A program made the translations under genes and the position numbers. From a virus: DNA of 34,231 nt. A model generated the notes under the pieces. The model was not told the DNA's origin, searched no databases, and saw only the letters and a list, made by a program, of their open reading frames with translations. The stretch is taken from positions 1-34,231 of the IMG/VR virus record IMGVR_UViG_3300037141_000051; one strand, 5' to 3'. Of this stretch, positions 19,765 to 28,015 are shown piece after piece; positions within the stretch are counted from its first letter, which is position 1, and every line of letters begins with the position of its first letter.

Positions 19765-19946
19765 TTCTTGCGACCGAGCTCAGCCATGGCGAATTTCGGC
19801 TTCGCTGCTTTATTTGCAACGGCGATGGCTTCACCCTCAGGAACGCCGCTCTTGAGAATAGCATTCGCCTGCTTGGCGGCTTTTGCCGCCTTGGATGGCG
19901 ACAAGCCCTTATTGTGTTTCTTGAATGACTTGCCGCCCCAAGGCAT
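19761..19946 (-). CDS. Small lysine-rich phage protein, 61 aa
   Basis: ATG 19946 to the stop overlapping the adaptor start (ATGA at 19761-19764). The peptide starts MPWGGKSFKKHNKGLSPSKA, followed by alternating Ala/Lys helix (KAAKQANAILKSGVPEGEA). 'PWGGKSFKKHN..L' is a recurring start of very small basic phage proteins, often annotated as hypothetical. The charge suggests DNA or virion binding, an inference. Chained overlaps with both neighbours support translation. Confidence 0.7.
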   Translation of the reverse strand: MPWGGKSFKKHNKGLSPSKAAKAAKQANAILKSGVPEGEAIAVANKAAKPKFAMAELGRKK

Positions 19947-20258
19947 CAGTTTGCCCTTTCGCCATGCTGGTTGACGATGACGGGCTTCTTGCGGTCAGCC
20001 TTGCGCTGCTCCAACTCAAGAGCGCGGATGCGCTTGTCCATCTGCACCAGCGCGGCGCGCACCGTCATGGCGCCGTCAAGATTTTCGACCGAGCCGACAA
20101 CGGACCCCCGTAATTCCTCCAAATTATGGATCATATTTATAATCAACTCTTCCTCGCTCATATCAGTTTGCCCTTTCGCCGTGCTGGTTGACGATGACGG
20201 GCTTCTTGCGGTCAGCCTTGCGCTGGGCAAGTTCCAGAGCACGGATGCGTTTATCTTG
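19945..20258 (-). repeat. Direct repeat of about 95 bp, two copies 217 bp apart
   Basis: Copy A is at about 19945-20041 and copy B at about 20162-20258. The first 64 bases, beginning atcagtttgccctttcgcc, differ at one position that I can see. Similarity then falls across the next 30 bases. The repeat encodes the shared C-termini of two adjacent small proteins. Confidence 0.88.
19946..20161 (-). CDS. Small helical protein, 71 aa; paralogue of the upstream gene
   Basis: The start is ATG 20161 (MSEEELIINMIHNLEELRG), overlapping the stop of the upstream gene. The central and C-terminal parts, QMDKRIRALELEQRKADRKK followed by PVIVNQHGERAN, are nearly identical to those of the gene at 20163-20429. 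The N-terminal halves differ. The helix 'KRIRALELEQRKADR' looks like a coiled coil, suggesting an oligomer. Function is unknown. The pair looks like a tandem duplication of a 3' end. Confidence 0.65.
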   Translation of the reverse strand: MSEEELIINMIHNLEELRGSVVGSVENLDGAMTVRAALVQMDKRIRALELEQRKADRKKPVIVNQHGERAN

Positions 20259-25424: not shown

Positions 25425-27979
25425 TTACGCGGAAACTATGGCTTGGAGGAAGCGGTTGCTCATCGTCATGTTGCCAGCCCAAGCAACCAGCTTGACCATG
25501 GCATCCTGATTCACGCTGAACCGATCCGGGTCCAGCGGGACCATGTCCCTGTCCTTGTGAGGGCGCAGGAAAATGTAGTCCGTGTTGAGCATGAACATGG
25601 ACGAAGCCGGCGCACCGCTGCCGCTCGACCACGAAAGCCCACCACCAAACGGAGGCGCACCGTTACCGTTCGTCGTGCCCTGGAAGCCGCCGTCATACAC
25701 GACATCGGCATCCATGAACTTGAGCGAGGCGAAACCCGCCATGCCCGAGCGGTCATCCGAAATGCGCTGGATGGCCTGCAACGACTCCCAGTAGTAACGG
25801 AAGTAGGTATTGTCCGCGATGATCACATCAGGACGATCGGCCTGTCTCGCTACCGAGAGCCAAGCGCGGTTCATCATGGTCTGCATCGTGGCAGCACCGG
25901 GGGTCAACCCGGCCGACGCGAAGCTGTTGACAGAGTTCTGCCAAAAACCCCACACGCCCGAATCGATGCCGCCGACAACGCCAGAGTTGTTGGTCGTGCT
26001 CACCAGAAGCTGCAGACCACCGATCTGCTTGCCGCCTGATGCCGATCCAGTGCTGTAACAGTCGGTAGAGATGTTGTTCTGCATCGTGCGCTCGGCATTG
26101 CCGATGCGCGACTCGAGCAGATCAATCATCTTCTCCTTGCCCAGACTATTCTTTACGTTGGCTCTTTATCCAACGCTTTCCATACGTCACCGCATGGCTT
26201 GGACTATCTCATCACTCGTGCGAGTGTCGGGCGCTCGTGGGCCGATTATTGTTGGAACTCACGGCCTAGTCTCTACGCCTTCCGCGCAACCTATGTCCTG
26301 CGCGGCTTGGCACGGTATTGTCTGGATCGCTCCAGATGTTCACCGTTTCACCCGATTTGAAAACTCCCAGCATTTAAGAGTTTTGCAGCATCTCGAGGCC
26401 CGAGATAGAGACCGCAGCAGCGGCCTGGGCGATCGAAAACTGCGCAGCGGTAAAGACATCTGAAGGCGCTATATTCAAAATGTCATAACCGCTGTAACGC
26501 ATATACGTGCCGTTCTCCAGAGGCACCCCTCAGGCTTTCGCAAGAGGCCGGACTATATCTTCACCCGTGGTCACGGGTGCGGTACGTAAAGTCTCTGAGC
26601 CAACCATATGTTCAAGGTAGCGATCGAGTTTGGCCTGTTTTCGACTGGCGTAAAAGAACATCCCTGCATCATGATAGCTGCGGATGTTTGGACACACGCA
26701 ATATGTGTCACGGTAGCCAGCCTTTACCTGCGTGGAAATCTTACCGACCTTGACGCCTACGCTTTGCATGATTGAGGCAAAGCCCTGGACTAGATTTAGC
26801 TTCCCGTTGGTGAAGCCGATCATCCAGCGTTTGATGTGATAGCGCTTGTCGGTGTTATCGACGAACTCCGCTGAGTAACCATCGGTGTCCATCAATCCAC
26901 GGCAGAACTCTAGCTTCGTTTCCTTCGATGCCGAAAAGTAATATGCCGGGATTTCCTGCCGCATCGCGGTATTGACCGAAAAGAAATCGAAAATCTCTCT
27001 ACGGTGTGCCGTGAACACGTAGTGAGGCTTCCCTGAAGGGAGAATCCTCGTCTGCATATTATATTTCTTGCCGAAGACTTGCTCGATTTGCGTCCGGGCT
27101 CTCTCAACCGGCTCTAGATCAGAGCAAACGAAGACAACATCGTTGTGGTAGTAGGTTTTCCCGTTCCTAGCTGACACGAATGGGCCTGAATACAGACACC
27201 CATCACCGAGAAAGAACCCTACCGCGTAGGCCAACTCATCGAACATGTGATTTTCGCTGCTGATTGCCCAATATTTTGCACTTTACCACTTTGGGGGCAA
27301 AATCTCTAAGGGATTTCCAGCATATTGTACCGTATCAACAGAGGATTTCGCCTCTGCGCTCCAGAAGGCTTATGCAGCCCTAGAGTATTCCATCTCTTGG
27401 ACGATGGCTTGACCGCCATCGAACGGCTTGACTTTGCCCTTCTGCGACAGGCGCCGCAGGAGAGCGTTGTTTTTGGTCGCTTATGTTATCGCGAGGGCTC
27501 TTTATCCCTCGCTTCTAACGGTTGCCCGTTAGGCCGGACTATCTCATGTGCTTTCTCAACGAGAGCATTTGCGGCTCGATCAAGCGCGCGACGGATGACA
27601 GGCTTCATAAGCTGTTCGCGTCGTGCAGCTCCACGAAACGCATTCGCCAATTCTGGCGACATAGCTCCTGCTGGGATACGCACCCGGGGGCTCGTGGGCG
27701 AATTATTGTTGGGACTCATCGCCTAGTCTCTACACCTTCCGTCGAACCTTTGCCCTCGACGGCTTGGCACGGTATTGTCTCGCTGTTTATGGCACGCACC
27801 GACCGCAGCAGTTTCTCAATCCTGCGATATAGTGCGTTTTCCTGTATAATCAACGAGAGTTTCACCGTTTCACCCGGTTTTGCAACGTCTGCCAGTTAAA
27901 CGTTGTCCGCCAGCTTTCGCGAGCGGTTGTAGAGCGTTGTGGTCGTAATTTCCGACCAATTGGTATTGGGTACGGACAC
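25425..27979 (-). CDS. Major capsid protein, four exons split by three group I introns (344 aa)
   Basis: Exon 1 is 27899-27979, exon 2 27382-27477, exon 3 26377-26517 and exon 4 25425-26141. All junctions fall between codons. Joined, they give one frame: exon 1 ends in KLADNV, exon 2 starts TKNNALLRRLSQ and ends IVQEMEYS, exon 3 reads ENGTYMRYSGYDILNIAPSD and ends GLEMLQNS, and exon 4 starts GKEKMIDLLESRIGN. This continuous order is the known pattern of a podovirus major capsid family (probable HK97 fold). Exon 4 holds SVARQADRPDVIIADNTYFR and FASLKFMDADVVYDGGF. The start is GTG 27979 with AAAGGA upstream. Gene order, between scaffold and decoration-like protein, agrees. Unspliced RNA would stop right after each exon. 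Confidence 0.92.
26142..26376 (-). other. Group I intron 3 in the major capsid gene (235 nt, minimal)
   Basis: Exon 3 ends ...CAAAACTCT. The guide GGAGTTTT pairs eight bases with AAAACTCT, with the terminal U opposite G. UGCU just upstream can pair with the exon 4 start GGCA (P10). P5 is TCTGGA-GCGA-TCCAGA (26321-26336), P6 arms CCGCGCA/TGCGCGG are at 26282-26305, P7 is GTAGAGACTAGGC (26264-26276) with GATGAGATAGTCC (26201-26213), P9 is at 26156-26175, and the intron ends in G. It has no ORF. The core is closely similar to intron 1. Confidence 0.92.
26518..27381 (-). other. Group I intron 2 in the major capsid gene (864 nt, endonuclease-bearing)
   Basis: Exon 2 ends ...TACTCT and the intron guide GGAG pairs with CUCU, with U opposite G. 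P4-P6 sequence is seen in AATATGCTGGAAATCCC and GGCAATCAGCAGC. P3 uses CGGTAC with GTACCG. P7 is CAGAGACTTTACG (26585-26597) with AAGATATAGTCC (26550-26561). P8 is the 8-bp hairpin at 26562-26579. The preferred 3' splice is before GAG (26517), since UUCU in the guide region can pair with AGAA of the exon (P10) and EYS-ENGTY matches the family. A G-ending alternative lies six bases earlier. Confidence 0.88.
26530..27246 (-). CDS. LAGLIDADG homing endonuclease encoded in intron 2 (238 aa)
   Basis: Two LAGLIDADG helices are present: LAYAVGFFLGDGCLY (residues 5-19) and FCRGLMDTDGYSAE (114-127). Each ends in the metal-binding acidic residue, so this is a single-chain, two-motif enzyme of normal length. 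Between and after them lie strand segments such as RILPSGKPHYVFTAHRREIF and RWMIGFTNGKLNLVQGF. Such enzymes cut intron-less alleles of the host gene so that the intron is copied in during repair. The ORF starts at ATG 27246, just after the P4-P6 elements. Its last 24 codons double as P7, P3 and P8 of the ribozyme. Both motifs look intact, so activity is plausible. Confidence 0.92.
   Translation of the reverse strand: MFDELAYAVGFFLGDGCLYSGPFVSARNGKTYYHNDVVFVCSDLEPVERARTQIEQVFGKKYNMQTRILPSGKPHYVFTAHRREIFDFFSVNTAMRQEIPAYYFSASKETKLEFCRGLMDTDGYSAEFVDNTDKRYHIKRWMIGFTNGKLNLVQGFASIMQSVGVKVGKISTQVKAGYRDTYCVCPNIRSYHDAGMFFYASRKQAKLDRYLEHMVGSETLRTAPVTTGEDIVRPLAKA
27478..27898 (-). other. Group I intron 1 in the major capsid gene (421 nt)
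   Basis: The 5' splice follows ...GACAACGTT. The guide sequence GACGTTG inside the intron pairs with CAACGTT and places a G opposite the terminal U, the hallmark of P1. P7 is formed by GTAGAGACTAGGC (27721-27733) and CATGAGATAGTCC (27536-27548). P6 arms CCGTCGA/TCGACGG lie at 27739-27762. P9 is a 7-bp hairpin at 27491-27512. The intron ends in G before ACC. Extra sequence sits in P5 (about 60 nt) and between the P7 strands. Confidence 0.9.
27486..27719 (-). CDS. Small ORF inside intron 1, 77 codons (doubtful)
   Basis: The ATG lies immediately after the P7 5' strand and the frame reads through the inserted P8-region sequence and the P7 3' strand. The middle is an Arg/Ala-rich helix (LANAFRGAARREQLMKPVIR, ALDRAANALVEKA) and the end, EIVRPNGQPLEARDKEPSR, is simply translated ribozyme core. 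No LAGLIDADG, HNH or GIY-YIG motif is visible and no good ribosome-binding site precedes it. It may be a decayed endonuclease ORF, a maturase-like helper, or chance. Confidence 0.25.
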   Translation of the reverse strand: MSPNNNSPTSPRVRIPAGAMSPELANAFRGAARREQLMKPVIRRALDRAANALVEKAHEIVRPNGQPLEARDKEPSR

Positions 27980-28015
27980 GGATTATCCTTTCATGTCCGA
28001 GTGAATGGGATTGCG

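Follow-up and report, generated by a model that had tools for sequence, protein, structure and literature searches.

Single introns in phage capsid genes and three introns within one phage gene are both known. In mycobacteriophage LittleE (Cluster J), a capsid-gene intron was demonstrated and shown to be spliced in infected cells (PMC3706429). It resembles the introns presented here in its location in the major capsid gene, the U that ends its 5' exon, its final G, its LAGLIDADG-like ORF and its absence from close relatives, but it is the only intron of its gene and belongs to a different phage group (PMC3706429). The same paper cites a capsid subunit gene of lactococcal phage Tuc2009 as bearing one group I intron, which is like our locus in intron class and host gene and, as far as that citation goes, unlike it in being single (PMC3706429). 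A title in the reference list of PMC11878797 announces three group I introns in one gene of phage Twort, and the paper itself describes two or three in each of the DNA polymerase and terminase genes of Bastillevirinae, most of them with homing endonucleases; these are genes other than ours, and the word capsid is absent from the paper (PMC11878797). Jug phages carry on average 18.5 introns across a huge genome, with terL in 2-3 pieces and some splicing backed by metatranscriptome reads; they share with our locus the richness in introns and the splitting of essential genes, whereas their introns are spread genome-wide and ours are confined to the capsid gene (PMC12363816).

Here we analyse a soil phage represented by IMG/VR virus record IMGVR_UViG_3300037141_000051, the entire 34,231 bases of which we call the window; for the capsid allele, it is a single metagenomic contig. 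Judged by its title, the Twort report concerns three introns in one gene, compared with up to 9 and 13 in the capsid families described below. The Twort gene is reportedly orf142, not a capsid gene. In the open-access literature that we searched, we found no report of a capsid gene with several introns, of a phage gene with more than three, or of capsid genes as intron-dense as these. Genes holding 9 to 13 group I introns, with exons measuring 5-23 nt, would far exceed the density of the described phage genes that we found (two or three introns). An initial annotation of the window had noted that phage genes with two or three introns are known, which Twort and Bastillevirinae bear out (PMC11878797), and had considered three in a short stretch of a major capsid gene rare. 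The latter view needs adjusting, since genes with 4, 5, 6 and 9 introns occur in the same family and one with 13 in another, so that the window is a modest case.

Anatomy of the interrupted capsid gene

It is very probable that the major capsid gene of the window is interrupted by three group I introns, most likely self-splicing from the late mRNA. On the minus strand at 25425-27979, frame and alignment analysis resolves four capsid exons, separated by insertions that measure 421, 864 and 235 nt. Exon 1 (27899..27979, minus strand, as are all features of the gene) starts with GTG, upstream of which lies an AAGGA ribosome-binding-like site at about 27986-27990, and ends with GAC AAC GTT. It is followed by intron 1 (27478..27898, 421 nt, core at 27641-27883), exon 2 (27382..27477, ending with GAA TAC TCT), intron 2 (26518..27381, 864 nt), exon 3 (26377..26517, ending with CAA AAC TCT), the ORF-less intron 3 (26142..26376, 235 nt, core at 26177-26361) and exon 4 (25425..26141), which runs from GGC AAG GAG to the stop codon TAA and matches the major head protein family phrog_9953. 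The sequences at the exon junctions are GACAACGTT/ACCAAAAAC, GAATACTCT/GAGAACGGC and CAAAACTCT/GGCAAGGAG. All three introns are in phase 0, i.e. each follows a complete codon.

Joined, the four exons give 1035 nt, that is 344 codons plus stop, with no internal stop and no frameshift. The spliced product covers positions 4-325 of the 329 of phrog_9953 (E 6e-108), compared with positions 112-325 only for exon 4 by itself. Intronless relatives read DNV-TKNN, EYS-ENG and QNS-GKE across the three junctions with no gap and no extra residue; these viral contigs, as much as 82% identical to the window where exon 4 lies, carry the same gene uninterrupted. A custom spliced protein alignment, the sole rules of which are that T/U precedes an intron and that the intron's last base is G, recovered these same junctions from two different intronless references. 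The pieces, order and coordinates of the four-part gene in the initial annotation hold, its 344-codon frame is exact, and the family-like sequence that it had noticed across every junction agrees with the intronless relatives.

Given this anatomy, it is highly improbable that we are looking at a decaying capsid pseudogene with unspliced insertions while a functional capsid gene lies elsewhere, even if the contig may be incomplete. The exons keep the family's protein sequence without stop or frameshift, the three insertions restore the frame exactly, which led us to reject a frameshift or pseudogene, and every insertion follows the U.G/terminal-G rule.

Isolated relatives of the window gene are unbroken. 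The nearest isolated relative is a Bradyrhizobium phage and a Xanthobacteraceae MAG contains a capsid gene related at 81%, two observations that hint at an alphaproteobacterial host for the window phage. Elsewhere in the window, at 19945-20255, the 3' ends of two adjoining small genes have in common a 94-nt direct repeat, 89% identical and 217 bases apart.

Group I features and covariation

The 5' exon ends pair with internal guides over 7, 4 and 8 bp in introns 1, 2 and 3 (GACGTTG; GGAG, with a further 4 bp added within the intron; and GGAGTTTT), forming a P1 with a terminal U.G in each case, and the last base of all three introns, with borders set by intronless relatives, is G. We compared the introns with the Rfam group I model RF00028 (cut-off 50 bits) and with a family covariance model, R1, built from 19 sequences that include the core of intron 3 and leave out intron 1. 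Intron 3 scores 58.6 bits with RF00028 (E 1.4e-12), above the cut-off, and 173.9 bits with R1, among whose 19 building sequences its core is counted; in energy folding, it reaches a z of -4.07, beats 200 of 200 shuffles and forms the expected helices. Intron 1 scores 111.7 bits with R1, in which it has no part, and 25.3 bits with RF00028 (E 8e-4), below the Rfam cut-off. Introns 1 and 3 are members of one family with a P3/P7 pseudoknot core and an extra P7.1 hairpin. Subgroup IA, the phage type, is characterised by extra P7.1/P7.2 hairpins between P7 and P3; one such hairpin, P7.1, is present and covaries in intron 3 and most relatives.

The covariation strongly indicates that a group I fold has been under selection. 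In an alignment of 19 related intron cores, one of them from the window, with the structure counted including the P3/P7 pseudoknot, 93.8% of cells are standard pairs, 31 of 42 pairs show changes on both sides, and double changes number 144 cells against 45 in shuffles; the pairing signal is lost when the partner is slid by one to three columns. P3 and P7 are 100% paired in the 19 introns, with double changes in both, and in two introns P7, the guanosine-binding helix, has gone from GACUA/UAGUC to GCACA/UGUGC by three compensatory changes. Such changes maintain the ribozyme helices and thereby argue further against a decaying pseudogene. In 31 intronless capsid loci (341 kb), R1 gave no match at E<=1, and in another search of intronless alleles it gave a single chance-level match (E 0.35).

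Intron 2 is of a separate lineage and appears to be group I, a class that we assign to it with less certainty than to introns 1 and 3. RF00028 gives two half-matches of 17 bits each (27241-27322 and 26529-26640), with E values of 0.2 each on 2 kb and of 5e-4 and 7.5e-4 on the whole record, and R1 gives 17.4 bits. The ORF of this intron (26530..27246) encodes 238 residues, overlaps the 3' part of the core and matches PF14528 (LAGLIDADG_3) with 25.6 bits against a cut-off of 22.5; the protein has no relatives among the viral contigs searched and only 26-30% matches among GenBank phages. A degenerate or different kind of intron, or another spliced element carrying a LAGLIDADG gene, would account for the low covariance scores of the two halves, for the lack of a fold signal (without its ORF, the core folds no better than shuffles, z -0.19, in an energy program that cannot model the P3/P7 pseudoknot) and for the absence of the 3' hairpin motif GGATAAAGAGCC, which is common to introns 1 and 3 and most relatives. 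We nevertheless regard this as unlikely, because the half-matches flank the ORF in the right order and because the intron ends in G, forms a P1 with U.G and offers both a P7-like pair and a possible P3 of 6 bp (CGGUAC/GUACCG). Moreover, LAGLIDADG genes are often housed in group I introns. Intron 1, by comparison, lacks a recognisable endonuclease; its 77-aa ORF (27486..27719, minus strand) has no family match. Since relatives' introns at this site bear GIY-YIG endonuclease genes, the ORF may be the relic of such a gene.

The frame, the P1 U.G pairs, the terminal Gs, the covariance matches and the P3/P7 covariation over 19 introns thus uphold the earlier reading of three group I introns as the best one, including the terminal U opposite G and the final G that it had assigned to all three. 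The P7 strands that it had likewise assigned to every segment stand for introns 1 and 3 by covariation and models, while intron 2 offers a P7-like pair only. The Rfam covariance search that it had proposed places intron 3 above the cut-off and introns 1 and 2 below, so that matches were found for the three segments, weak ones for intron 2, and the refuting outcome that it had named, covariance models without any match, did not occur.

Group I splicing proceeds by two transesterifications. In the first step, a guanosine bound in P7 would attack the phosphate after the U of the P1 U.G pair; in the second, the freed exon would attack behind the final G of the intron and so be joined to the next exon. 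Following this established chemistry, we infer that each intron splices itself from the late transcript and that three such events yield one capsid protein of 344 residues. Few phage proteins are as abundant as that of the capsid, so each intron in its gene must splice out well.

Intron load and insertion sites among relatives

Introns have repeatedly settled in the capsid gene of this phage group, at about 31 different insertion sites and with 0 to 9 introns per gene. By the same spliced alignment method, 108 of 123 complete relatives are intronless and the remainder carry 1 to 9 introns; these records overlap in ancestry, and the counts are not independent. Alignments with negative scores (L243, L246, L249, L258, L327 and L333) were left out. 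Nine introns interrupt the gene of contig L279 (IMGVR_UViG_3300005434_000025), the spliced protein of which, at 343 residues, is equal in length and closely alike in sequence to that of its intronless sister L284. Contig L317 (3300037840_000553) has nine full-size introns, and further relatives have 6, 6, 5, 5 and 4 per gene. Most intron-bearing relatives give full-length spliced products. Six insertion sites fall within residues 58-70, four of which split a tyrosine codon after its T. Some of the relatives' introns encode an endonuclease (GIY-YIG, HNH or LAGLIDADG-like), which may lie on either strand, and others encode none.

The mutual likeness of introns within one gene can confuse an assembly, and odd junctions do occur in two relatives. 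In L317, site 28/29 (L317:4035-4085) holds 51 nt with P1 pairing and a final G, an in-frame TAA and no core, where relatives have a full intron; this piece is either a dead intron remnant or an assembly error. In L326 (L326:5067-5617), two intron ends enclose a 58-codon-like ORF in place of the exon that would encode residues 128-165. Both contigs hold pieces unable to splice as assembled, and either the assemblies may be imperfect or the alleles broken. Still, metagenome repeats wrongly joined hardly explain the insertions in general: independent contigs of different sample sets have identical sites (e.g. L278, L279 and L309; L343 and L344), and mis-joins would not restore frames or set every junction after U and G. 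Partly broken genes such as those of L317 and L326 might also be expected of a family drifting into pseudogenes, yet genes with 9 and 13 insertions behave just as the window gene does.

Three minor observations concern the same genes. L317:6242-7059 holds introns of only 179-186 nt, separated by exons of 22-45 nt; to our knowledge, this is very small for natural group I introns. In L278, L279, L319, L326 and L022, a second intron subtype (P7 GAGCAU/AUGUGCUC, without P7.1) stands beside the main type in the same capsid genes. A candidate intron at residue 27 of L002 and L003 was rejected as a one-base frameshift with no gap; the two capsid genes are close to each other and have this frameshift in common near residue 28, beside the site of window intron 1 (L002:517-618, L003:4672-4773).

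Preference for capsid genes

Scanning for a core motif that introns 1 and 3 share, without regard to the host gene, we found the same intron family in at least four other head-protein families (phrog_1005/Phage_cap_E, SU10_MCP, phrog_334 and phrog_371/4523). Introns, 1 to 13 per gene, interrupt 31 of the 59 complete genes of the phrog_1005 family. The gene of 3300034279_001550 contains thirteen, with exons as short as 5 and 6 nt among them, and its spliced product agrees with that of an intronless relative at 342 of the 346 residues aligned; in 3300044547_001977, 11 introns exceed the cut-off of the Rfam model, which was not built from these introns. The nearest isolated relative in this family, Synechococcus phage S-CBWM1 (68%), has an unbroken gene.

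Within whole records, the introns keep to the capsid gene. R1 gave 73 matches at E<=0.01 in 20 records (737 kb), 72 of them inside the capsid gene and the remaining one (in record G003) just upstream of its alignable part. Because R1 was built from capsid introns, the search was repeated with the general Rfam model, for which every match in 16 records lies in the capsid gene and none elsewhere. Inside the gene, the middle third is free of sites in both capsid families (120 of 344 and 178 of 351 residues); random placement equalled such a stretch in 0 of 20,000 draws for the first family and in about 1 in 10,000 for the second. In the phrog_1005 family, the intron sites lie in more conserved stretches.

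Intron trees group by capsid family (11 changes compared with 74 when shuffled) and also by insertion site (44 vs 52.9; second family 31 vs 46), the latter signal being inflated by near-copies. There is no grouping by genome in either family (47 vs 47.7; 42 vs 38), and we therefore do not propose that the many introns arose by local duplication inside a single genome. For introns other than intron 2, grouping by capsid family and site and not by genome is consistent with transmission between related phages at constant sites and an occasional jump elsewhere; for intron 2, the LAGLIDADG homing endonuclease would be the likely agent. New sites might be reached by reverse splicing into the capsid mRNA, which is abundant, although direct proof of this mode of mobility is lacking according to a review (PMC3984707). 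As very short exons leave room for guide pairing only, a forced order of splicing would be expected.

Phage capsid genes thus look like a hot spot for group I introns. More tentatively, and with less than even confidence, we suggest that tailed-phage capsid genes of several unrelated families are a selective accumulation site of one group I family, reaching 13 introns and 5-nt exons, and that the cause is tied to the gene's role or its abundant mRNA, e.g. through reverse splicing, rather than to DNA sequence alone. Intron-dense capsid genes make testable how several ribozymes avoid exon skipping, in which order they splice, whether endonuclease homing or reverse splicing into an abundant mRNA brings them in, and what the load costs the phage. 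They also warn that capsid genes, on which virus surveys usually rely as a marker, can be overlooked or fragmented in phage annotation.

The preference for capsid genes is strong, in a sampling that was not designed to measure it, and it is not absolute, because the intron family also occurs in DNA polymerase, tape measure, helicase and pmoC genes. The core-motif scan also returned many distant introns in other genes, which we take as context only. In two viral contigs, a phage-borne pmoC, which encodes a methane monooxygenase subunit (PF04896, E 6.6e-100), is split by a group I intron that belongs to this same broad family (L125:374-543 and L096:2168-2337, both on the minus strand).
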